This document shows, piece after piece, positions 1 to 11,138 of a stretch of 64,000 nucleotides of DNA. A program made the translations under genes and the position numbers. The stretch lies in NCBI GenBank assembly GCA_002746975.1, contig NVXE01000010.1, forward strand, positions 270-64,269. Direction: 5' to 3'. The stretch is from Bacteroidota bacterium. GTDB taxonomy: Bacteria > Bacteroidota > Bacteroidia > Flavobacteriales_D > Sanyastnellaceae. A model generated the notes under the pieces. That model saw nothing but the letters and a program-made list of their open reading frames with translations, did no database searches and was not told where the DNA came from. Within the stretch, counting starts at the first letter, position 1, and each line of letters opens with the position of its first letter.

Positions 1-85
1 ACTTAATTTCAATGGTGTTTTTATTAGTTAGATTTATTCGGCAGTGTTTCCCCTTTTTATTTGATGCTCCTCGGATGTATGGTAA

Positions 86-132
86 CGTCTAGTATATGGC
101 GCGTTTTAACGCGCTATATACACTGTTGTAAG
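86..132 (-). repeat. attC-like recombination site (hairpin)
   Basis: A 12-bp stem joins positions 92-103 to 110-121 with one G-T wobble and a 6-base loop (TTTTAA). On the - strand it is preceded by CTTACAAC (125-132) and followed by GACGTTACC. Layout and size resemble an integron attC: outer R'' arm, imperfect stem, G-TT cut point. It lies directly 3' of the cassette gene, where an attC belongs. A simple terminator is less likely because no T-run follows. Confidence 0.55.
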
Positions 133-211
133 TAGTTATTCTTTTCATTGTCAATTTCCAGGTTCTGCTTTTGCTTTTCCAAATGATTAAATCAATAGCT
201 ATTATTTTGCT

Positions 212-625
212 TCACCCGATTAATTCTTCGAAGTGTTCAAAGAATTTTTTCGCGTTCCTTTTATTCTTCCCCCAGTCGATAATCGTTGTTGTAAAAGCAC
301 ACATAGATGCAAACTTTACTTCTTGACCTTCTTCAGTCACTGCAACTTTCACCGTAATATTTTCGCCAAATGACCAAAACGATAAACCGGCATGCGCATA
401 GTGTCTATCAAGTTCATTGTTAAATCCAACCTTTTTAAACCTTGCATTCATAAGCGCTTTGGTAATGATTTTTTTCATGTCGACATTTGTCTTGGAGTAA
501 GTTCTTTTTACTTTATGCTTACTTGTTAATGCGTCAGGGTCTTTTGTGATTTTCTTATAAGAGTAGAAGAAAACGAAAATGATTAAGAGTAAAATCGGTC
601 CTAAATATTCAATCTGCCATTCCAT
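212..625 (-). CDS. Small membrane-anchored hypothetical protein (cassette gene)
   Basis: A 137-residue protein of unknown function. Residues 8-22 form one hydrophobic membrane segment (ILLLIIFVFFYS region), followed by a basic stretch and a soluble domain of about 90 residues that looks mixed alpha/beta (motif GLSFWSFGENITVKV). I recognise no catalytic motif. It is the only gene of the integron-like cassette: its start lies about 27 bases inside the 5' boundary, and its stop is followed by the attC-like hairpin. Many integron cassettes encode such small orphan proteins. Topology would place the soluble part in the cytoplasm or periplasm; the sequence does not decide which. Confidence 0.6.
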   Translation of the reverse strand: MEWQIEYLGPILLLIIFVFFYSYKKITKDPDALTSKHKVKRTYSKTNVDMKKIITKALMNARFKKVGFNNELDRHYAHAGLSFWSFGENITVKVAVTEEGQEVKFASMCAFTTTIIDWGKNKRNAKKFFEHFEELIG

Positions 626-743
626 TTATATTGCTTTTAAATTACTTACAACTATTATATATCCTCACCTTTATGCCCAATCTCAGTCTATAATTAAGAT
701 GTTAAATGAGAACTCAGAATGAAGTGTTTGTCAAGATAGTTAA

Positions 744-1004
744 TTATAACATATCATCGAATGGGTTGGGAAGATTTTTAATGTGCTGACTGCTCAAGTG
801 CAAATAAATTTCTGTCGTCATAATACTTCCATGTCCTAACAGAAGCTGCACAGCACGTATGCTTACCTTGTTTTCAACCAAATGAGTTGCAATACTGTGC
901 CTGAATGTGTGAGCACTTACCTTTTTCTGAATACCGGCATTTTTACAAGCCCGTTTGATGATTTTGTTAATGCTACTCGGACTGTAAAAGTTCCCGCTTT
1001 GCCC
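744..1004 (-). pseudogene. Tyrosine recombinase remnant (C-terminal part, XerD/integron-integrase-like)
   Basis: An open frame of 86 codons with no start codon; an in-frame TAA (1005-1007) lies directly upstream. The translation has the C-terminal catalytic part of tyrosine recombinases: HTFRHS (His-x-x-Arg), LLGHGSIMTTEIYLH (Gly-His and the Tyr nucleophile) and a typical short tail. The N-terminal arm-binding domain and the first catalytic Arg are missing, so it cannot be active alone. It reads in the same direction as the cassette about 90 bases downstream, as in 'inverted' integrons. It may be the degraded integrase that served that cassette, or an unrelated Xer-type element. Confidence 0.75.
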
Positions 1005-1319
1005 TTAGACTAAATAGGAACGATTGAGGGGTGTTTTAGATTATGATTTATAATCTGAACTACAATTAATCTGCCGATAGTACAGTGGGACGTTTTTTGC
1101 TTTTGGTGAGATATTCTAACTGACTGACAATCCTATTTCCTTTATAGTACATTTCACAATAGGCTCAAACCTATATGTTATATTTATAATTTCCCTGTTT
1201 TATTCAGTTGAATATCTAATATGCTTACCCTTAAAGAATCCAGAACATTTTAAATCTTTTTTAAACATGATTTGACAGAGTAATTTCAGCTAAAGCTCAT
1301 TATACTTCCCTAGTTCGTC
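1005..1319. other. Gene-free stretch between two mobile-element remnants
   Basis: No supportable gene in about 315 bases of AT-rich DNA. The only structure I see is a perfect 7-bp stem (1038-1044 with 1050-1056) around the 5-base loop GATTT. It has no T-run, so it is not a convincing terminator. The stretch probably holds decayed parts of the IS-like element to its right. Confidence 0.5.
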
Positions 1320-1442
1320 TCATCGCAATCCTGAAATAACAACAACCATCATCTCCTCAGATTTAAACTGCTTTCTGGATTCACGTTTGATATCCCTAAT
1401 TGAGTTCTTTATATTATTAGACCTACCTGGCCCTCTTTGCAT
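1320..1442 (-). pseudogene. Decayed IS3-type transposase OrfA fragment
   Basis: The translation contains IKRESRKQFKSEE followed by a hydrophobic turn and SGLR. This resembles the start of IS3-family OrfA proteins, where (K/R)R.(R/T)R..(Y/F)S.EEK is followed by (I/V)..GLRGE. Here the codon after GLR is TGA and the next residues would be D-E, so a GGA (Gly) to TGA change could explain the stop. Beyond it the frame decays and no helix-turn-helix remainder or DDE domain is recognisable. No terminal inverted repeats were found. The call rests on a short motif and is tentative. Confidence 0.4.
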
Positions 1443-1542
1443 AAAAAAGTTTTGTGATACTCTAAAGTAAAAAGTATACATTAATATTAGTAACTTTTGT
1501 CCAACTTTTGCTGACGCCTTACATACTTGAAAAATTAGATAA

Positions 1543-3399
1543 ATGAAATTAGAAAAAATCTTAAGTAACTTAAATTCACTAGAGAAGAATTCATTTATTA
1601 AAATTATCGACAATATAATTGCGAATAATCCTAAAAATTATAAAGCAATTGATAAGATCCTTGCAGAAACGGACAACACTGTTCTAAAAAGCCTTGACAA
1701 TGTCGTTATATCTAAAATTTTCAGCTTAATCGAAGTAGAGTTTTCTCAATTGATAAAATCTGAATTTGTAAATACATCTTCCCAACTAGACATCTTGACT
1801 GATATTATTACTAGAGATGGAAATTGTATCATGAAACAAGACTGGTTTGCTCGACTTTATGAAACAGAATTAAAGACGATAAACAAAAAAATAAAATCTT
1901 TACAAAAAGAAATTGAAAACCCCAAGTCGGAATTATCTGAAGACAGAAAGAGAGATTATAAAATATATCAATGTTGTGTTCACACAGCTTTTCATAATGA
2001 CATAGAAAATAATCGTGAAGCAAAAATTACAGATGATGAATTATCAATTTTATTGACTTTATCAAATCAGCTGGAGCTTTCTCAAGAAGAAACTAAATTG
2101 ATTAATTATACGATTTTACCTGCAAAAAAAGCAGAAATAGACAATGTAATTTCTGAGTTAAAAAACTTAGGGGTAATCTTTTACGTAAAAAAAACAAGCA
2201 CAATATATGTGGCGGATGAGATGGTTCGTGTTATCCGAAAAATTCGAGAAAAAGAAATTGCCGATAAATTTTTTAGACGAGTTTTAAGATTATTCAAAGA
2301 ACCTCAAATCAACTTAATTGCACGAAAACATAACATCGACAGAAAATTGAGCTTTGACCAAAAAATAAAGGAAATAATTAATGAAGGAATCTCTTTTTCC
2401 GGCGTTTTATCAAGAGACATATACAAAGATGGTACAAATGTTTCCGATAAAAAGAAATTCTTAAATGAGTTTTGGAGCAAAAACTTAAACCTCTCTCCTG
2501 CTTTAAAGGGGACTACATTAGAAGAAAAACTAGCAAATATAATTGCACATTTTGACACGATTGAAAAAGATGATAAAGTGGGTATTTCAATTGATGGTTA
2601 CGAAAAGCTTTTAATAGAACTTGATGAAACATTACCAAAACTAAATAATCGAGTCAAGGATGAATTCGAACTGCAAGATGAACATGTTTTAAAAAGCAAC
2701 TTACTCCTAGATTACAACATTAAACCCCGAGATATTCTAGATATTATTCAATCGAAAGAATTAGAGAAATTCTGTAAAATACGAGAAATAAAAACACGAG
2801 GAAACGATATTGAAAATATTCTTGATGTGTATAAAGATTCTGAAAACCTCTATCTTGAAAATTATGTAAATATTGGATTTAGAAATCTAAATGCATTAAA
2901 AGAAAATGGTATCATCATTAAAGAAGCCAATCTAGGAATAAAATTTGAAGATTTAACGAAATCTATTTTCTCTCAATTGGGATTTAACGTTGACGAAAAA
3001 CTTAAAAAAGAACTCAACACTAAAAAAGACAAGATTGATATTTTACTCAACCTAGGGAACAATGAATTAATCTTAATTGAGTGTAAAACGATTAAAGAAA
3101 GCGGTTACAATAAATTCAGCTCTGTTTCTAGGCAAATGAAATCATACACAGGACTTGCAAAAGCAAAAGACTGTAAAATAATCAAATCTTTATTAATAGC
3201 ACCTGATTTTAGCGATGACTTCATCAATGACACAGAACTTGAATATGAGTTGAATTTATCATTAATTACAGCTTCTTCTCTACTTAAAATTCTTGAAGGC
3301 TTCAAAAAATCTAAGAAACATAAACTCTTCCCATATAAGCTACTTATGAGAGATGTGTTAATCAAAGAAGACAGAATAATAAAAGCTATGGGGAAATAA
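1543..3399 (+). CDS. Large protein with C-terminal PD-(D/E)XK (Mrr-like) nuclease domain
   Basis: A 618-residue, AT-rich, Lys-rich protein. The first 380 residues are mainly helical with a coiled-coil-like part near 95-120 and match nothing I can name. Residues 387-430 (NIKPRDILD, then FCKIREIKTRG) look like a SAP-type or similar small DNA-binding fold. Residues 465-600 form a restriction-endonuclease-like core: E469 in FEDL, D499 in KIDILL, and E513-C-K515, the classic E...D...ExK set. It probably cuts DNA, perhaps as a type IV-like or other defence nuclease. It stands alone in DNA full of mobile remnants; the next gene is an AAA_14 ATPase 204 bases downstream. Confidence 0.7.
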   Translation: MKLEKILSNLNSLEKNSFIKIIDNIIANNPKNYKAIDKILAETDNTVLKSLDNVVISKIFSLIEVEFSQLIKSEFVNTSSQLDILTDIITRDGNCIMKQDWFARLYETELKTINKKIKSLQKEIENPKSELSEDRKRDYKIYQCCVHTAFHNDIENNREAKITDDELSILLTLSNQLELSQEETKLINYTILPAKKAEIDNVISELKNLGVIFYVKKTSTIYVADEMVRVIRKIREKEIADKFFRRVLRLFKEPQINLIARKHNIDRKLSFDQKIKEIINEGISFSGVLSRDIYKDGTNVSDKKKFLNEFWSKNLNLSPALKGTTLEEKLANIIAHFDTIEKDDKVGISIDGYEKLLIELDETLPKLNNRVKDEFELQDEHVLKSNLLLDYNIKPRDILDIIQSKELEKFCKIREIKTRGNDIENILDVYKDSENLYLENYVNIGFRNLNALKENGIIIKEANLGIKFEDLTKSIFSQLGFNVDEKLKKELNTKKDKIDILLNLGNNELILIECKTIKESGYNKFSSVSRQMKSYTGLAKAKDCKIIKSLLIAPDFSDDFINDTELEYELNLSLITASSLLKILEGFKKSKKHKLFPYKLLMRDVLIKEDRIIKAMGK

Positions 3400-3603
3400 A
3401 GCCCCTGCATATCAAGCTCCTAAACGTAATTCCATCCAGCTCGAGTTGTCTTTCTTAGAACTATCGTTTCGCCTCACGACTGCTGGAGAGTATTGGGAAA
3501 TAAGCTCTCCTAAAACCTCATTTTTGTTTAAAAATAACTATTTATAAAAATAAGGTCATTTGCAAGACTCTGTTTTGTAAGTTTATTATAAAATAAGCCC
3601 CAA

Positions 3604-5031
3604 ATGATACGAGAAATATCCAAAGATCAAGTATTAGACCGCATTCGCTTTGAAAACCCATGGTGGATTGAAGGTGAAATTGAAGCTTATTACAATGAGA
3701 TGCCACGTAGATTATACTTTGACCTTTTCAAGCCTTTAGTAAAAGAGAGAGAGGTTAGAAGAGCTGTAGTCCTTATGGGACCGAGAAGAGTGGGCAAAAC
3801 CGTTATGCTCTATCATATGGTTCAAGAATTAATCGACCTTGGGGCAAATCCTAAAAAGATAATATTTATAACTATAGAAAACCCTATCTTTAATAATATC
3901 TCTCTTGAACAACTTTTTACTTATTCAAAAGAAGCAACTGGCCTGACTGATAAATCTGATTGGCACATAATATTTGATGAAATACAATATTGTAGAGATT
4001 GGGAAGTGCACTTAAAATCACTAGTAGATAGCTATAGGAAAGATGAATTTATTGTCTCAGGCTCTGCCGCAGCTGCCTTAAAATTTGCAAGTAATGAAAG
4101 TGGGGCGGGTCGATTTACAGATTTCTTACTCCCTCCGCTCACCTTTAATGAATATATCTCTTTAAAAGGTTTGGGCAGACTTATTAAACCAATACAGCTG
4201 AAATGGAACGATAAACAGACGGAATTCTATTCGACAAGTCACTTAAATGAGCTTAACAGACATTTTTTAGATTATATAAACTTTGGAGGGTATCCAGAAG
4301 TTATACTTTCTGAGAAAATTCAAGCGAACCCAGGACGATATATTAGGCAGGACATTGTAGACAAAGTTATACTTAGAGATTTACCGAGCCTTTATGGCAT
4401 AAGCAACACAAGAGAATTATACTCTTTATTCACAACAATTGCATACAATAGTGGCGGTGAATTTTCGCTTGAAACTTTGAGTAAGCAATCGCAAGTACCT
4501 AAAAAAACATTGAAAAAGTATATCGAATATCTAGAAGCCGCATTCCTCATCAAGAAAGTAAAACGAATTGATCAAAGTGGAAAAAGATTCAAACGCGATA
4601 ATTTCTTTAAACTTTATCTTACAAATCCTTCATTAAGAAGTGCTTTATTTACTCCCATAACATATACTGATGAAATGATAGGAAATATGATTGAAACAGC
4701 CATCTTTGCTCAATGGATGCATAGGGACAGGTTTACACCATATTACGCGAGATGGAGTAATGGTGAAGTGGACATGGTGGGAATTAGTGATAATACATTA
4801 AAACCTATTTGGGCTCTAGAAATCAAATGGTCTGACCGGTATTTTGAAAAACCAAAAGAATTGAAAAGCTTAATTAAATTTTGCCATGAAAATAATCTTA
4901 AGACACCGATTGTTACATCAATAAGTAAAGAGGGGGAAGTAGAATATGCCGACGTGCATTTTCAATTTTTACCCTCTTCAGCCTATGCTTACACGGTCGG
5001 GCAAAACACGCTTGACATAAACAAACACTAA
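3604..5031 (+). CDS. AAA_14 / DUF4143 family ATPase
   Basis: A 475-residue protein of the common prokaryotic ATPase family with an N-terminal AAA_14 domain and a C-terminal DUF4143 domain. The Walker A motif is GPRRVGKT (59-66), Walker B is HIIFDE (D125, E126), and SGSAA near 152 acts as sensor. GRFTDFLLPPL near 170 is also typical of the family. A winged-helix-like part follows, and near the end GEVDMVG with ALEIKW resembles the PD-(D/E)XK-like core of DUF4143. These proteins are widespread, often horizontally moved, and their cellular role is not settled; some are linked to toxin or DNA metabolism. Length is normal. Confidence 0.85.
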   Translation: MIREISKDQVLDRIRFENPWWIEGEIEAYYNEMPRRLYFDLFKPLVKEREVRRAVVLMGPRRVGKTVMLYHMVQELIDLGANPKKIIFITIENPIFNNISLEQLFTYSKEATGLTDKSDWHIIFDEIQYCRDWEVHLKSLVDSYRKDEFIVSGSAAAALKFASNESGAGRFTDFLLPPLTFNEYISLKGLGRLIKPIQLKWNDKQTEFYSTSHLNELNRHFLDYINFGGYPEVILSEKIQANPGRYIRQDIVDKVILRDLPSLYGISNTRELYSLFTTIAYNSGGEFSLETLSKQSQVPKKTLKKYIEYLEAAFLIKKVKRIDQSGKRFKRDNFFKLYLTNPSLRSALFTPITYTDEMIGNMIETAIFAQWMHRDRFTPYYARWSNGEVDMVGISDNTLKPIWALEIKWSDRYFEKPKELKSLIKFCHENNLKTPIVTSISKEGEVEYADVHFQFLPSSAYAYTVGQNTLDINKH

Positions 5032-5085
5032 ATGGACAACAACATTTCTAACATTTGTAGGCGATCAATGCGGGAAACCTGAACT

Positions 5086-6225
5086 ATGACAATATTTTAT
5101 ATACTCGCATTGGTTTCTTTGGTGATAGGCATGGGAGCGATTTTTACTTTGGTGGAGAAATTCCCTGTCAAGCTACTTTACTATCACTATCACTACAGAA
5201 AACCCCTTATCTGGAGTTTGTTTCTTGGCTCTTCTCTATACCAAATCATCTCTTCCGAAGGCTTCGACATTAACTCTATCCCTCCATTAGCGATTATGGG
5301 GTTGGCGGTGATTTTGACTTATAAAGTACATCAGTCGAATTGGTTTAAAGCGGTTTACTACCCCGAGATGACAGAAGATTTCGATCTTCTCCCGCTATCG
5401 GATGATCAAGAAATTGCACTTATAGAATATGAAGGCGTTACGAAGGCTTACCCCTTAAATTATGTGATTCATCATCATATCGTAAATGACAAATTCAACG
5501 ATAAAATCATCGCTCTCACATACTGCGCTATGTGTAGAAGCATTATCCCATTCAATGTAACAGAAATCGGTCCACTATTCGTTGCATCATTCAAAAACGC
5601 TAATATGATAGTTGCCGATAAGAAAACTGGAACGTTTTTTCAGCAAGCTACTTTTGATTCTATCATAGGGAAATTACACCCCCGCTCTCTGGAAATGATA
5701 ACGTTTCAAATTTTGCCTTGGGCTATGATTAAGGAATTGAAAAGTAAACCTCAAGTAGCTCTTATAAATGAAAATGACCTTAGACCTTTTAATCTGCCCA
5801 TGCCTGGTGTTTGGAAAAAAGTTATGACTTCAGAGCTTACTCCAGGGCTTTCGAAAAAAGACACGACATTTCCGTCGAAAACTCATGTTGTAGGTATAAC
5901 AGATACGTCTATAAAGGAGAAGGTCTTCTATTTAAAGTCTGAGGTATTAGAACAGAAAATCGTGAAAAACGAAAAAAACAATTTCACGTTGATTTCAATA
6001 GGTAGTACTGTAACAGGGTTTAAAACGAAACGAATAAATATAATCCTGAAAGAGGATAGATTAATTGAAGACACGTTAACCAAATCTACTTGGGATATTA
6101 CTGGAAAATATCTTGACGGTGATATGAAAGACGATTTAGAAAAAATCTCAATCTCAGATGAATATTGGTTCTCGTGGAAGAAATTTCACCCGAAAAGTAA
6201 ATTGCTTCGCCTAAGTGAAAATTGA
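5086..6225 (+). CDS. Membrane-anchored DUF3179 domain protein
   Basis: A 379-residue protein. Three hydrophobic segments at about 1-24, 41-57 and 66-79 anchor it in the inner membrane. The rest is a DUF3179 domain, shown by KAYPLNYVIHHHIVND and LTYCAMCRSIIPF, the two signature blocks of the family, including its CxxC pair. DUF3179 proteins have no proven activity; the His cluster and cysteines suggest metal or redox binding, but that is inference. It heads a + strand group with a small barrel protein (62 bases further) and a type II NADH dehydrogenase, so a link with electron transfer is possible. Confidence 0.8.
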   Translation: MTIFYILALVSLVIGMGAIFTLVEKFPVKLLYYHYHYRKPLIWSLFLGSSLYQIISSEGFDINSIPPLAIMGLAVILTYKVHQSNWFKAVYYPEMTEDFDLLPLSDDQEIALIEYEGVTKAYPLNYVIHHHIVNDKFNDKIIALTYCAMCRSIIPFNVTEIGPLFVASFKNANMIVADKKTGTFFQQATFDSIIGKLHPRSLEMITFQILPWAMIKELKSKPQVALINENDLRPFNLPMPGVWKKVMTSELTPGLSKKDTTFPSKTHVVGITDTSIKEKVFYLKSEVLEQKIVKNEKNNFTLISIGSTVTGFKTKRINIILKEDRLIEDTLTKSTWDITGKYLDGDMKDDLEKISISDEYWFSWKKFHPKSKLLRLSEN

Positions 6226-6287
6226 GTCTAAATTTCGTCAAGCCAAGGCTTACCTTTATCTTATTAGTGTTCAAACCCTACAATTTT

Positions 6288-6764
6288 ATGAAAAATCGAA
6301 TTATAAAGACTCTTTCAATAATTACAGTGATTTTTCTGAGTAATTACTCTTTCGCCCAAACCATTACTTCACCTGAAAGAGGCGATTCGTTGAAGAAGGA
6401 CTATCAAAGACATTCTATAGTACTAGAGGTGCTCGGGAAATCATGGGGCGGCACGATTAGCTACGAGTATAAATTTCGCCCAAACCTATCTGGAGGGGTG
6501 GGATATGGTACAAGCCCTACGTTTTATGGTGGTAAACATATAGGGGTAGTATATGGGGTTTTACGAGTTGGGGAAAACAGAAAACACTTTGTTACCTCAG
6601 CTGGGATAATGTTCTCAAATGAAATTATGAGCCCTAACTTCGGTTTCGGATATGAGGTTGAAAAAGAAAAAAGCTATTTTAGGATAATGCCCTACGCAAT
6701 TCTAGCAATGGATGATGACTATCCGATAATACCTTCTCTAGGTCTTTATTTTGGACTAAAATGA
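6288..6764 (+). CDS. Small outer-membrane-barrel-like protein
   Basis: A 158-residue exported protein. The ATG at 6288 gives a clear signal peptide (KNRIIKTLSIITVIFLSNYSFAQ) with a cut after FAQ. An upstream TTG at 6222 would add 22 residues in front of that signal and is rejected. The mature part has alternating hydrophobic residues and many Gly and aromatic residues (LSGGVGYGTS, GFGYEVE, LGLYFGLK ending in a hydrophobic strand), as in small outer-membrane beta-barrels. No named family. Its stop overlaps the start of the NADH dehydrogenase by 4 bases, so the two are translationally coupled. Confidence 0.65.
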   Translation: MKNRIIKTLSIITVIFLSNYSFAQTITSPERGDSLKKDYQRHSIVLEVLGKSWGGTISYEYKFRPNLSGGVGYGTSPTFYGGKHIGVVYGVLRVGENRKHFVTSAGIMFSNEIMSPNFGFGYEVEKEKSYFRIMPYAILAMDDDYPIIPSLGLYFGLK

Positions 6765-8104
6765 TAGAATCAACCTTAAAGGAAAGCATCAATGCGAATG
6801 ATGAAACTAAGGAGCAAATATGCTTAGCTAAATCCGACAATCCTAAAGTAGTAATTATAGGCGGAGGGTTCGGGGGCTTATCACTAGTGAAGAATCTGAG
6901 TAAAGAAAATGTACAGGTTATTTTAATTGACAAGAACAATTTCAATCAGTTTCAACCGCTGTTATATCAAGTTGCGACGAGCGGATTAGAGCCAGACAGC
7001 ATAGTCTTTCCTTTTAGAAAACAAATTTCTAATTCGAAAAACGTGAGTTTTTTAATGGTTACAGTAGAAACTATTAATACGGAGTCAAAGACCATATATA
7101 CTAATAATGGGTTTCTGAGTTATGATTACTTAGTAATAGCAACAGGAACGGCAACGAATTTTTTTGGTAATAAAAACATTGAAAAACACAGTATCGGATT
7201 AAAGAACATTAGAGATTCTCTGAATATTCGTCATAAAATGCTTCAAAACCTCGAGCGTGCAACAATAACTAGTGATGCAAAAGAAAAGGAGGCACTTACG
7301 AACTTTGTGATAGTAGGTGGTGGTCCTGCTGGTGTTGAGATGGCGGGTGCATTAGCTGAGTTTCGCAAATATATCTTACCGAAAGATTACCCAGAATATC
7401 CTCCCTCTATAATGAAGGTTTATTTGATTGAAGGCTCTGGTAATCTCATTGCTTCTATGTCAGAAAAGGCATCGCGCAAAACTTTAAAATACCTACAAGA
7501 ACTCGATGTAACTGTAATTCTAAATGAGATTGTTACTGATTATGACGGACATAAAGCAGTTACGAAAAGTGGGCGAGAGATTCTTGCGAAAAATTTGATT
7601 TGGACTGCAGGAGTGAAAGGACTTTTACCCAACGGAATCAATGAAAGCCATATTGTTGGGGGTAATAGACTTAGGACGAATCAATTTTTAGAAGTTGAAG
7701 GCCTTAAAAACGTCTTCGCAATAGGCGACATCGCAGCAATAATCAGTAGCGAAACACCTAAAGGTCACCCACAAGTAGCTCAGCCCGCTATCCAACAGGG
7801 TAAGCTATTGGCGAAGAATTTAATGAATGCGATTAATCATAAAACTCTTTTACCTTTTCATTATAAAGACAAAGGATCATTAGCTACTATCGGTAAAAAA
7901 AAGGCCGTTGCAGATATCGCAAACTATAAATTCGCTGGATACTTTGCTTGGCTACTTTGGTCTTTAGTGCATCTATTCTCAATTATTGGATTTAGAAATC
8001 GGTTGCTTGTAGGCCTCAACTGGACTATAAGCTATTTCAGTTACGAGAAGAGTAATAGGATAATTATTCGCGAGTATAATAATGATGACGTAGACTCTCA
8101 ATAG
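6761..8104 (+). CDS. ndh: Type II NADH dehydrogenase (NDH-2)
   Basis: A 447-residue FAD enzyme that passes electrons from NADH to quinone without pumping protons, at the inner face of the cytoplasmic membrane. The FAD-binding motif is IIGGGFGGL (32-40), the NADH-binding motif is IVGGGPAGVEMAG (184-196), and the block NQFQPLLYQVATSGLEP (62-78) is typical of the family. FAIGDIA near 325 is the second FAD contact, and AQPAIQQG the quinone-site helix. The C-terminus (WLLWSLVHLFSIIGF) is a membrane anchor. The family call is firm; the exact substrate is not proven. The ATG overlaps the stop of the preceding gene. Confidence 0.85.
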   Translation: MIESTLKESINANDETKEQICLAKSDNPKVVIIGGGFGGLSLVKNLSKENVQVILIDKNNFNQFQPLLYQVATSGLEPDSIVFPFRKQISNSKNVSFLMVTVETINTESKTIYTNNGFLSYDYLVIATGTATNFFGNKNIEKHSIGLKNIRDSLNIRHKMLQNLERATITSDAKEKEALTNFVIVGGGPAGVEMAGALAEFRKYILPKDYPEYPPSIMKVYLIEGSGNLIASMSEKASRKTLKYLQELDVTVILNEIVTDYDGHKAVTKSGREILAKNLIWTAGVKGLLPNGINESHIVGGNRLRTNQFLEVEGLKNVFAIGDIAAIISSETPKGHPQVAQPAIQQGKLLAKNLMNAINHKTLLPFHYKDKGSLATIGKKKAVADIANYKFAGYFAWLLWSLVHLFSIIGFRNRLLVGLNWTISYFSYEKSNRIIIREYNNDDVDSQ

Positions 8105-8119
8105 AGGTAAACTCTAGGT

Positions 8120-8290
8120 TTATCGAATATAATACACTCGATTTTCTTTTTCAGCTTCTTTATCTTTCATCTGCCCAAAATGTGCTCCTATGAAAAGTCC
8201 AAACATCTTTTTAAGTACTTTCTTCCTTTTTGAGTCAACTGAATTTTCGATGAGAATTGTTAAATCATCACTCATTATTGTCGTTTTCAT
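8120..8290 (-). CDS. Small hypothetical protein (56 residues)
   Basis: An open frame of 56 codons starting MKTTIMSDDL and ending RVYYIR. It lies 10 bases downstream of the MDR dehydrogenase in the same direction. It is Lys-rich with a short amphipathic or hydrophobic middle (KKMFGLFIGAHFGQ). It is supported only by an uninterrupted frame filling an otherwise empty 196-base gap; no family is recognised and it could be chance. Confidence 0.35.
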   Translation of the reverse strand: MKTTIMSDDLTILIENSVDSKRKKVLKKMFGLFIGAHFGQMKDKEAEKENRVYYIR

Positions 8291-8300
8291 GATGCCGATA

Positions 8301-9278
8301 TTATGAGTTCATTGTTACAATTACATTCCCTCTTTTTCTCTCAGAATCAACATATTTGTGTGCTTTTTGAATTTGAACAAAAGGGAATACTCGATCTATT
8401 ACTGTAACTAGTTGCTTCGATTCTAACATGTCTCTAACTATGATGAAATCTCGCTTACGAAGTTCCTCAGTACGCATTCCCGTTGCAGAAAACTTCAACT
8501 TCTTCTTTGTAAATGGTGAAACGAACAACATGGTAAGTAGTGTAGACATTTTTAATACCGGGGTAAGAAAAACACCGTTTTCAGACATGTTATTTCTAGT
8601 TTCCATATAAGATAGCTTACCTACTGTATCGAAAACAACATCAAACTTTTCCGAACTGTTTTGAAATTCATTCTTTGTGTAATCAAAAACATTATCCGCA
8701 CCTATATCTTTCACAAGCGCCTTATTCTTCCCACTACACACTCCTGTTACTTCAGCCCCGAAGTGTTTCGCAAGCTGAATAGCCGCGGTGCCGATACTTC
8801 CTGAAGCTCCATTTATCAAAACCTTTTGGCCTTTCTTAATAGTGACTTGATCGGTGAAAAACGCGAGTGCAGTACATGCTCCATCAATTATTCCAGTAGC
8901 TTCTTCAGGACTTACATTCTCAGGTTTGATTACAATTAATCCATCTGATGCCAAACAAATGTATTCGGCATAAGCCCCACAATCAAGAGCGGTTGCAGCC
9001 ATTACACTATCGCCTATGTTAAAGTTTTTAACTTCAGAACCTATTGCCTCAACAACTCCTGCAAGATCTGTTCCAGGGGTTTTAATTTTAGGTTTCGTAA
9101 GTCCGAGAAACAAACGACCGAAATATGGTTTGCCTTCTCTCATAAACGTGCTTGCAGCAGTTACAGCTGTCGCGTTAATTTTAATGAGAACCTCATTAGG
9201 CTTAGGAGAAGGTTTATCTACATGTGTGAGTTGAATAACTGAATAGTCTCCATATCTCTCTGTAATTACTGCTTTCAT
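8301..9278 (-). CDS. MDR-family NAD(P)H-dependent oxidoreductase (quinone-reductase-like)
   Basis: A 325-residue medium-chain dehydrogenase/reductase. The N-terminal GroES-like domain includes PGTDLAGVVEAIG (68-80). The nucleotide-binding Rossmann motif is INGASGSIGTAAIQLAKHFGA (154-174). The four-Cys structural zinc site and the catalytic zinc ligands of alcohol dehydrogenases are absent, so it fits the zinc-independent quinone oxidoreductase or enone reductase branch. Substrate unknown. It lies 72 bases downstream of a TolB/TPR/AraC regulator in the same direction, so it may be that regulator's target. Confidence 0.8.
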   Translation of the reverse strand: MKAVITERYGDYSVIQLTHVDKPSPKPNEVLIKINATAVTAASTFMREGKPYFGRLFLGLTKPKIKTPGTDLAGVVEAIGSEVKNFNIGDSVMAATALDCGAYAEYICLASDGLIVIKPENVSPEEATGIIDGACTALAFFTDQVTIKKGQKVLINGASGSIGTAAIQLAKHFGAEVTGVCSGKNKALVKDIGADNVFDYTKNEFQNSSEKFDVVFDTVGKLSYMETRNNMSENGVFLTPVLKMSTLLTMLFVSPFTKKKLKFSATGMRTEELRKRDFIIVRDMLESKQLVTVIDRVFPFVQIQKAHKYVDSERKRGNVIVTMNS

Positions 9279-9300
9279 ATTATAATGTTTTAATATGATG

Positions 9301-9309
9301 CAAAGATTA
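9301..9309 (-). promoter_or_regulatory. Possible -7 box of the MDR dehydrogenase
   Basis: The - strand reads TAATCTTTG followed by C, close to the Bacteroidota -7 box, 22 bases upstream of the ATG. No good -33 TTG is seen at the right distance. It suggests the gene can be transcribed apart from the regulator upstream. Confidence 0.35.
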
Positions 9310-9350
9310 CCCGACAGATTCCGGCAGTCGTTCCAGATTACAAATCAGAA

Positions 9351-11138
9351 CTAATTATTAAGTTGCTTCCAGTAAGCTTTAGGAGTTAGGCCTAGCTTAT
9401 TCTTAAAGAAGGTGTTAAAGACCGTTTTAGAGTTGAACCCACTATCGTAAGCTAAAGCCAAAAGAGTCAGCTGGTGTGCCGAATTAGTGCCCAATTTTGA
9501 TTGAAAATCTTTTAGCCTGTAACTATTCGTGTAGTATGCAAAATTTTGATTAAACCCCTCGTTTAAAAGTTGAGACATGTGGTTTGGAGGTAGGTTCATA
9601 TATTCGGCAAGTGATCTTAGGGAAAGTTCCGGATTTAGATACAACTTATCTTCTTCCATTAAAGTCTTCAATCGATTTTTATAGTGACTGATCTCTTTAT
9701 CCGAAAATAACGACTTTTTGTATTTTCTAAGCGGGGCGACAGATATGGTGTCTTTTAAAATCCCGGTTATATGTTTCTTAAAAGCTGAAAGGTTGTGTAA
9801 AGGCCTTGCCAAAGGCTCTGTAGGGAGCAATAACACTAAAGGAAATAGACTTTCTATTCCAGTTTTAATGTGCTCTAAAGCTTTATCCAGATTGTTTAAT
9901 TGTGTATGACACAGAATCAGGAAGTTTAAAGCATTTCCTGCAGATGAAGTTTCCAAGTATGTCTCTAGTTTGGAAATCCCCTCTTCTGCTTTCTCAATAT
10001 TTCCCATCATAGCGTGCGAAATAGTAGTCCCTCCAAGTTTTGCAAGATAGCCCGTGTCATCTTTTGGAAGGTTTTCAAAATAGGCCAAACCTTCTTCAAA
10101 ACGTCCAGACAAAAGGTGACAAGCTCCGATATAAACGACAGGGAAAGGAAGTTCAGGCTGTAGGTTTAAACTCTTTTTGAAATGAGTCAATGCTTCATCA
10201 TACTTACCCAACATATAGAATAGAAACCCCTTATAATGCACACTAACGGGAGAAAATGGGGCTAATTCTAATGATTTATCTATGAAAGTCATTGCTTCAT
10301 CGAGTTTGCCTTCAACTGTCAAAAAATTAGACATGGTTAGATACATCGTATCGGAGGGGCGAATTCTCAACGCATTATTTAAATGTATATAGGCCTGTTG
10401 TAAATCCCATTGTTGCCAGCAACTACTCCATGACAAATTCAACTGAGTTTCGGGAAGGTCCTCCTTCAATTCAATCGCCTTAGAAAGGAAGGGTTGAGCT
10501 TTCATAAAACCTTCGTAAGATGATATAAGTCCCATAGTGCCCAAATAAGAATACGCTTGGTTTACATCTAAATAAGGTAAAGGGAAGTCTGGAGATTCGT
10601 GGATAACATCTTCAAATATTGATATTGCTTTTAAAGTATTCGTGTAATCCAGCTTCATCAAGAAGAACCTTCCCTTTAAGTATTTTTTATACGTTTCAAA
10701 TGGGACATTGTACGAGTCAACTAATTGTTCTTCTAACTCGAAGTGGCCTAGCTGTTCTCTGAGCTTATCCGCTATGAGTAAGCTTATCTCATCTTGAACA
10801 AGGAATATGTTTTTCATATCCCTATCAAATGTCTCTGACCAAAAATGGAAATCGTTTTCAACTTCTATTAGCTGAGCTGTTATTCTAGCTGAAGTGCCTG
10901 AAAGCCTAATACTCCCTTCTAGTATATAGGAAACATTTAATTTGGCACCAATTTCTGACAGATTAAAGCTTGTTCCTTTGAATGAAAATGAAGACGTTCT
11001 GGAAGTGACTTTTAGTTCCTGAATCCTTGCAAGTGCGTTTATGATTTCCTCAGTAATCCCATCAGAAAAATACTCAGCCTCTGAATTTGAACTCATGTTC
11101 ACAAATGGAAGCACAGCGATAGATTTGTTATCTGTCAT
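9351..11138 (-). CDS. TolB-like / TPR / AraC-type transcriptional regulator
   Basis: A 595-residue, three-part protein. Residues 5-125 (SIAVLPFVNMSS, YFSDGITEEIINALA, YILEGSIR) form the TolB/FlgO-like N-terminal domain often found in signalling proteins. Residues about 135-460 are tetratricopeptide-like helical repeats (for example DEALTHFKKSLNLQPELP). Residues about 485-595 are an AraC/XylS DNA-binding domain with two helix-turn-helix motifs (LSLRSLAEYMNLPPNHMSQL; LALAYDSGFNSKTVFNTFFK). It has no membrane segment, so it acts in the cytoplasm. It probably senses a protein or small ligand through the repeats and controls nearby genes, most simply the dehydrogenase downstream. Confidence 0.8.
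   Translation of the reverse strand: MTDNKSIAVLPFVNMSSNSEAEYFSDGITEEIINALARIQELKVTSRTSSFSFKGTSFNLSEIGAKLNVSYILEGSIRLSGTSARITAQLIEVENDFHFWSETFDRDMKNIFLVQDEISLLIADKLREQLGHFELEEQLVDSYNVPFETYKKYLKGRFFLMKLDYTNTLKAISIFEDVIHESPDFPLPYLDVNQAYSYLGTMGLISSYEGFMKAQPFLSKAIELKEDLPETQLNLSWSSCWQQWDLQQAYIHLNNALRIRPSDTMYLTMSNFLTVEGKLDEAMTFIDKSLELAPFSPVSVHYKGFLFYMLGKYDEALTHFKKSLNLQPELPFPVVYIGACHLLSGRFEEGLAYFENLPKDDTGYLAKLGGTTISHAMMGNIEKAEEGISKLETYLETSSAGNALNFLILCHTQLNNLDKALEHIKTGIESLFPLVLLLPTEPLARPLHNLSAFKKHITGILKDTISVAPLRKYKKSLFSDKEISHYKNRLKTLMEEDKLYLNPELSLRSLAEYMNLPPNHMSQLLNEGFNQNFAYYTNSYRLKDFQSKLGTNSAHQLTLLALAYDSGFNSKTVFNTFFKNKLGLTPKAYWKQLNN

Follow-up and report, generated by a model that had tools for sequence, protein, structure and literature searches.

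Background

Is a small gene that is bounded by sequences resembling the ends of an integron cassette, and that lies beside a broken recombinase, the remnant of a canonical integron or the edge of a different gene-capture system? The question is raised by the first kilobase of the window, by which we mean the whole stretch of 64,000 nucleotides analysed here. It comes from a Bacteroidota bacterium of the Sanyastnellaceae and begins at base 270 of its contig (NVXE01000010.1, here C9), so that 269 bp of contig lie to its left. The available portion of PMC8618304 names the Bacteroidota among the phyla with integrons, and that of a RefSeq-wide survey (PMC9024848) reports a single complete integron in Bacteroidetes proper, in Salinibacter. 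A preliminary description of the window had proposed a single, stranded cassette, possibly of an integron-like family in Bacteroidota that uses a shorter fold than the classic attC. We now consider it highly likely that the window includes the part of an integron-like gene-capture platform that lies next to its integrase, a platform run by a sister lineage of IntI that lacks the I2 insert and moving circular cassettes by attC sites folded mainly as bottom strand.

Results and discussion

A cassette with complementary ends

The features at the start of the window all read on the minus strand (Table 1). Cassette 1 starts, from the G652^T651 crossover, with GTTGTAAG, an 8-nt stretch to which its R'' core, CTTACAAC, is exactly complementary; the complementarity of the ends, claimed from the outset, thus holds to the letter. 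The core is followed by 3 nt of spacer, a 12-position helix that closes a 6-nt loop, 5 nt of spacer and the second crossover, G86^TT. The loop is as first described; the stem, given as 12 bp, consists of 11 Watson-Crick pairs and one A.C mismatch, which falls at helix position 9, position 14 being paired. The predicted fold of the bottom strand has -12.2 kcal/mol and that of the top strand -10.5 kcal/mol.

Table 1. Features at the start of the window (positions of the window)
Feature	Position	Strand	Remarks
Start of cassette 2	1..85	-	Continues beyond the window, on C9 down to about 100
Gene cassette 1	86..651	-	566 bp; crossovers G652^T651 and G86^T85
attC-like site of cassette 1	86..132	-	R'' core 132-125, L'' arm 121-110, loop 109-104, L' arm 103-92, R' begins G86
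137-aa cassette ORF	212..625	-	No match to a Pfam family; of 299 genomes, 16 including its own have weak relatives (15 others)
attI-like stretch	653..743	-	91 bp from integrase stop to first crossover; comparable position in relatives
C-terminal integrase fragment, 86 aa	744..1004	-	An in-frame stop opens it; 11 more codons reach to 1040
Match to the end of contig C12	898..1053	-	157 columns, 95.5% identical; 996-898 is an exact 99-nt overlap
Decayed upstream integrase sequence	1031..1127	-	101 columns at 73%; position shifted against the C12 copy

For searches we used a strict test that demands an 8-nt start, its exact reverse complement 120-2600 bp further on, and next to that a helix that has 11 or more pairs and ends at GTT. 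Cassette 1 was the sole match on the minus strand of window positions 1-1100, and positions 1101-64000 gave none on either strand. An Rfam scan of positions 1-10000, with E up to 1, returned no match. Applied to C9:1-1400, the strict test found two chained units: the first 269 bases of the contig carry a second cassette of about 250 bp, chained to cassette 1 and ending in a longer attC of its own. A third unit begins at the contig end, where it nearly repeats the first ~90 bases of cassette 2 before the contig stops. The cassette is therefore not single.

The ORF of cassette 1 has relatives at 17 returned loci, and none of the 12 that were checked lies in a strict cassette, which gives no sign that this gene family moves. 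Farther into the window, a 618-aa protein without Pfam match (1543-3399) adjoins an AAA_14/DUF4143 ATPase at 3604-5031.

The neighbouring integrase and an assembly fork

To judge from its sequence, the recombinase next to cassette 1 is a tyrosine integrase copy that has decayed; a near-intact copy, with 350 open codons and cut by the contig end, closes contig C12. When C9:1-1400 was compared by BLAST with 27 contig ends of the genome, each of 4 kb, only the C12 end matched. The exact 99-nt overlap of the two contigs looks like an assembly k-mer and hence an assembly fork; the intact and the broken gene may therefore both lead into the array, or the array may exist twice. An intact integrase may thus precede the array in reality, and the local copy, whether decayed or wrongly joined, is presumably inactive. 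'Broken' is accordingly right for C9, with its 86-aa C-terminal fragment, and leaves room for an intact copy upstream by way of C12; 'stranded' hinges on the same fork. The genome also has its own XerD, above the cut-off of the model, and a second Xer on C11 that is probably XerC-like. Several of its contig ends (e.g. L038, L042, L046, L053, L057 and L062) share, among the matches listed, repeats of ~120-390 bp that are about 75-95% identical to each other and unrelated to the cassettes.

C9 thus has two complete attC-like sites and an upstream integrase made ambiguous by the fork, and the threshold for a CALIN is two or more attC sites that lack an integrase (IntegronFinder 2.0; available portion of PMC9024848). 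An ordinary CALIN would consist of canonical attC cassettes, once moved by a canonical IntI elsewhere and now stranded, with the neighbouring recombinase unrelated to them. A set of cassettes beside a broken local recombinase suits such an origin, and CALINs are, in the available text of the same survey, about as frequent as integrons in RefSeq.

Arrays beside the integrases of relatives

A first sample comprised 80 loci, the best 80 of at least 562 confirmed. The strict test gave 87 matches in 263,955 bp downstream of the integrases vs 4 when this stretch was shuffled once; the 480,874 bp upstream yielded 46 (19 on the plus and 27 on the minus strand). The 77 minus-strand matches downstream were rejected as a control, attC being nearly palindromic, so that arrays also score on the other strand. 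Counted without the stem criterion, chain links numbered 160 against a mean of 27.9 in 20 shuffles, and at least one link, which singly can be chance, was present in 34 of the 41 loci whose downstream flank measured 1500 bp or more. Downstream flanks shorter than 1500 bp were found in 39/80 loci, upstream ones in 1/80, which fits assembly breaks in repetitive arrays.

In 43 of the 80 loci a pair start lies less than 200 from the end of the integrase match, and 20 of these starts fall at 129-137 in match coordinates, about 100 bp past the stop. This proximity to an integrase without I2 speaks against an ordinary CALIN, whose cassettes would have no tie to the recombinase beside them. The 3' flanks of several integrase genes show a stretch common to related species, then GTT, then differing sequence; in four of six related locus pairs (L026/L036, L008/L009, L012/L013 and L021/L033) homology ends at the crossover GTT or within a few bases of it, and in the other two it stops at the gene end.

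A second sample consisted of 20 genomes, chosen as the best minus-strand profile matches with 9 kb of room; one locus (L201) appears to repeat one of the first sample (L073), since both have the same hit position on a record of the same size. It yielded 44 strict matches vs 1.6 in shuffled sequence, distributed over 15 of the 20 loci, the other five having none. Allowing A^TT as crossover in the same sample gave 40 matches vs 18.2 shuffled and was too noisy to use. The cassette with an attC-like end and the integron-like family of Bacteroidota that had first been suggested are thus borne out by the strict test and the arrays of relatives alike.

The integrase is co-directional with the cassettes in the loci of relatives. 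Of 38 cassettes chosen at 11 loci, which are part of the strict matches of the first sample, 34 have their largest ORF on the strand of the integrase, and the remaining 4 had no ORF of at least 50 aa. Pfam recognised nothing in six of ten cassette ORFs; the others included a Fic protein and one of the phosphotransferase family, along with two matches that were weak or to a DUF. A cassette of Flavobacterium cheongpyeongense (L113:11681-12694) carries a phosphotransferase-family (APH) gene. On a Chryseobacterium plasmid (L064:6918-9185), one unit in an array is bounded by the same long inverted sequence, with 14 of 14 helix positions paired, and is possibly another element.

A GC-rich hairpin 3' of a gene could also be a transcription terminator or a dispersed repeat, the complementarity of the ends being coincidence. 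The hairpins, however, follow differing genes, in every unit start and end are exactly complementary, chain links are far more numerous than in shuffled sequence and homology breaks at the crossover. We rejected this explanation on the strict cassettes of the second sample, and the chance that it is right is minute.

Copies of the stem in other genomes

The preliminary description would have been refuted by a stem with no copy in related genomes, or by one always downstream of one conserved gene. The stem pattern of the window occurs once in its own genome and, with one mismatch, in two other genomes among the 299 of the order that were searched, its own included; with up to 3 mismatches the total is 3/299, again with its own. 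Viral contigs contained no exact copy of the pattern. In one of the two genomes, from another family (L005), the window-type stem closes a cassette that holds a different gene, and a further cassette, with a different attC, comes before it, so the proposal stands. This site, the nearest relative of the window site that was found, has A.C at both positions 9 and 14 (by eye and from the folds). A shorter fold is not a mark of the family, the sites listed spanning about 54 to 144 nt.

A conserved mismatch and a predicted strand preference

To look at the stems without having selected for them, we took 142 candidates chosen by chaining, with no stem criterion. At least 11 of 14 positions were paired in 45, vs 1/710 shuffled; the other 97 had no good stem, and given the numbers of chain links in shuffles many chain candidates must be chance links. 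The 45 sites passed an ungapped-pairing filter, which would overlook bulged sites and raises the apparent pairing; it did not select for particular bases at position 14. At that position 38 of the 45 have A.C (22/26, 8/10 and 8/9) and one has a Watson-Crick pair. Most of the other positions in the stem vary among 2-4 Watson-Crick types, and sliding the register lowers pairing from 0.79-0.85 to 0.22-0.32. No bulged, that is extrahelical, bases were seen in the 45 sites, which were paired ungapped and chosen by the ungapped filter. The bottom strand is predicted to fold better in 39/45 sites (mean 2.5 kcal/mol), vs 108/225 random segments, because a top-strand A.C is a G.T on the bottom strand.

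Stems that carry a mismatch and not a bulge are again at odds with an ordinary CALIN. They also bear on a further alternative, in which the system is real and the DNA moves double-stranded, by Xer-like exchange at the R boxes, with the stem used for binding only. The arms are nearly a duplex site, and an enzyme without I2 resembles XerA as much as IntI4. Such movement would hardly account for a covarying stem with a mismatch that is almost invariant and a strand bias that runs one way; it seems to us unlikely, although it is the most serious of the alternatives.

An integrase lineage without the I2 insert

The integron-integrase model TIGR02249 scored above its cut-off in none of the 299 genomes of the order, and in none of 14 control genomes either, so that the cut-off is without a positive control. 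Many partial matches of the model in the order's genomes skip its positions ~180-238. Against IntI4 (2a3v) the alignment of a family integrase jumps 42 residues; this stretch we take to be the I2 insert, in agreement with what the literature holds on an IntI-specific insertion. The insert is absent from 16/16 aligned rows, two of them cut off beyond that place. An AlphaFold model of a family integrase (pLDDT 86.5) is nearest to XerA and IntI4.

In a tree of 50 rows, the 36 family members form one clade (96/96) with XerA and XerC/D outside, and its sister is the pair IntI1 + IntI4 (97/90), the only two IntI included, IntI1 being flagged for odd composition. To judge from the sequences, and with two IntI in the tree, the integrases form an I2-less sister lineage of IntI. 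The integrase copy of the window genome pairs with that of L130 (98/94), whose array has nine strict cassettes, mostly chained. Taken with the arrays, and with a search for canonical integrases that returned nothing in the order at a cut-off without positive control, this leaves an ordinary CALIN improbable.

The lineage extends well beyond the order. A profile run on 296 genomes of the phylum separates the family, at 231 bits or more, from the rest at ~217 and below, and finds a family-type gene in 94, about a third (by hand count, and by integrase score, not array); some of them may be components of other mobile elements. A phage collection gave 57 records, with identity of at most 37% in 12 among the matches listed. 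Some family proteins are called 'site-specific tyrosine recombinase/integron integrase' in plasmid annotations. The available text of PMC8138268 places integron integrases in a subgroup called 'integron-like' and describes its insertion as 'not fully conserved' but 'essential for integron function'.

Comparison with known systems

With the canonical integron the family shares tandem co-directional cassettes, complementary R''/R' ends, an L''/L' stem, the G^TT crossover, a better-folding bottom strand, a sister integrase and an attI beside the integrase, this last by anatomy only (its recurring position and the end of homology). It differs in three respects. IntI has I2, whereas the family integrase is without that insert; bulged bases there (an unpaired extra base in one class 1 site, by eye) contrast with A.C mismatches here; and the canonical integrase is divergent from its cassettes, while here it is co-directional, with attI at its 3' end. 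Integrons with a co-directional integrase exist in Treponema, in the same orientation as here. By strict definition the system of the window is thus not a canonical integron, and very probably it is a sister variant that works like one.

An array with immunity genes on a Bacteroides ovatus plasmid (L065:6835-12797) is made up of co-oriented short genes, with intergenic motifs that are short attC-like hairpins, and its integrase lies inside the clade of the window family in the tree. It has 7 chain links, against a mean of 0.075 and a maximum of 2 in 200 shuffles; the pair count, weak alone, is 14 vs 5.5 shuffled with a maximum of 13. By the features described in the available part of PMC12247911, the array can be assigned to the rAID type. 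That text speaks of 'conserved intergenic sequence motifs', with 0 occurrences of 'integron' and 'attC' in the part available. A tyrosine recombinase, co-oriented short genes and intergenic motifs are all present in relatives of the window, whose own integrase is broken. The cargo of rAID is orphan T6SS immunity genes, and no immunity family is recognised in the window ORF, which has no Pfam family.

The tet(X2) cassettes of Sphingobacterium faecium pWB1 (L230:1680-3007) and of an Empedobacter brevis plasmid (L231:1680-3007) have exactly complementary start and end, a full attC of the family type and, on the two plasmids, different neighbours on either side; for the Empedobacter plasmid, two more copies of the 8-nt start farther upstream pass the strict test as well, and the copy adjoining the gene was taken. 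No integrase is annotated in the 2.6-kb flanks examined. For tet(X3) on pHH1107 the strict test failed, the 3' site looking incomplete, and the tpnF/xerD gene beside it (L066:5001-5708) is in the tree a shortened member of the integrase clade. The available portion of PMC13148043 describes aph(3')-IVb of Riemerella anatipestifer, with a short 5' UTR and a 140-bp attC-like 3' UTR, as inserting without flanking homology; the same portion reports no integron near the insertion site, names no recombinase and leaves the mechanism open. This insertion resembles the family cassettes in its described anatomy. In the open-access literature searched we recognised no paper on I2-less integrons in Bacteroidota.

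A proposed mechanism

For the platform proposed at the outset, the following course would account for the data. A tyrosine integrase reading the same way as the cassettes would have an attI-like site right after its 3' end. Circular cassettes, each with one attC folding mainly as bottom strand, would be inserted there at G^TT, and they should be excisable again, because each end is complementary to its own start. The choice of strand would come from the conserved top-strand A.C mismatches, G.T wobbles on the bottom strand, which would replace the bulged bases read by I2. The proposal draws on the anatomy, chaining, position and variable content of the units, the sister relation to two IntI, the missing insert, the mismatch pattern and the predicted strand bias. 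Recombination would be performed by the family integrase, with the folded single strand as its substrate.

Conclusions

It is probable, in our judgement, that the Bacteroidota run phylum-wide integrons of their own, with a sister lineage of IntI that dispenses with the I2 domain, regarded as necessary for folded attC sites, and a choice of strand through A.C/G.T mismatches in place of bulged bases, and that rAID arrays, the movement of tet(X) and the homology-free uptake seen in Riemerella are one mechanism. Current integron finders seek I2-type integrases and would presumably miss this family for the most part. The platform would supply a concrete candidate for how tet(X) and the immunity genes of rAID arrays move. 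In the available text of PMC4792948, I2 and the bulged bases of attC are held to have co-evolved, which leaves a paradox that is stated there. If the present reading is true, the Bacteroidota would hold a living answer to this published 'chicken-egg' question of whether I2 or attC came first; a platform without I2 or bulged bases would widen the known range of integrons and make the I2/attC paradox testable.
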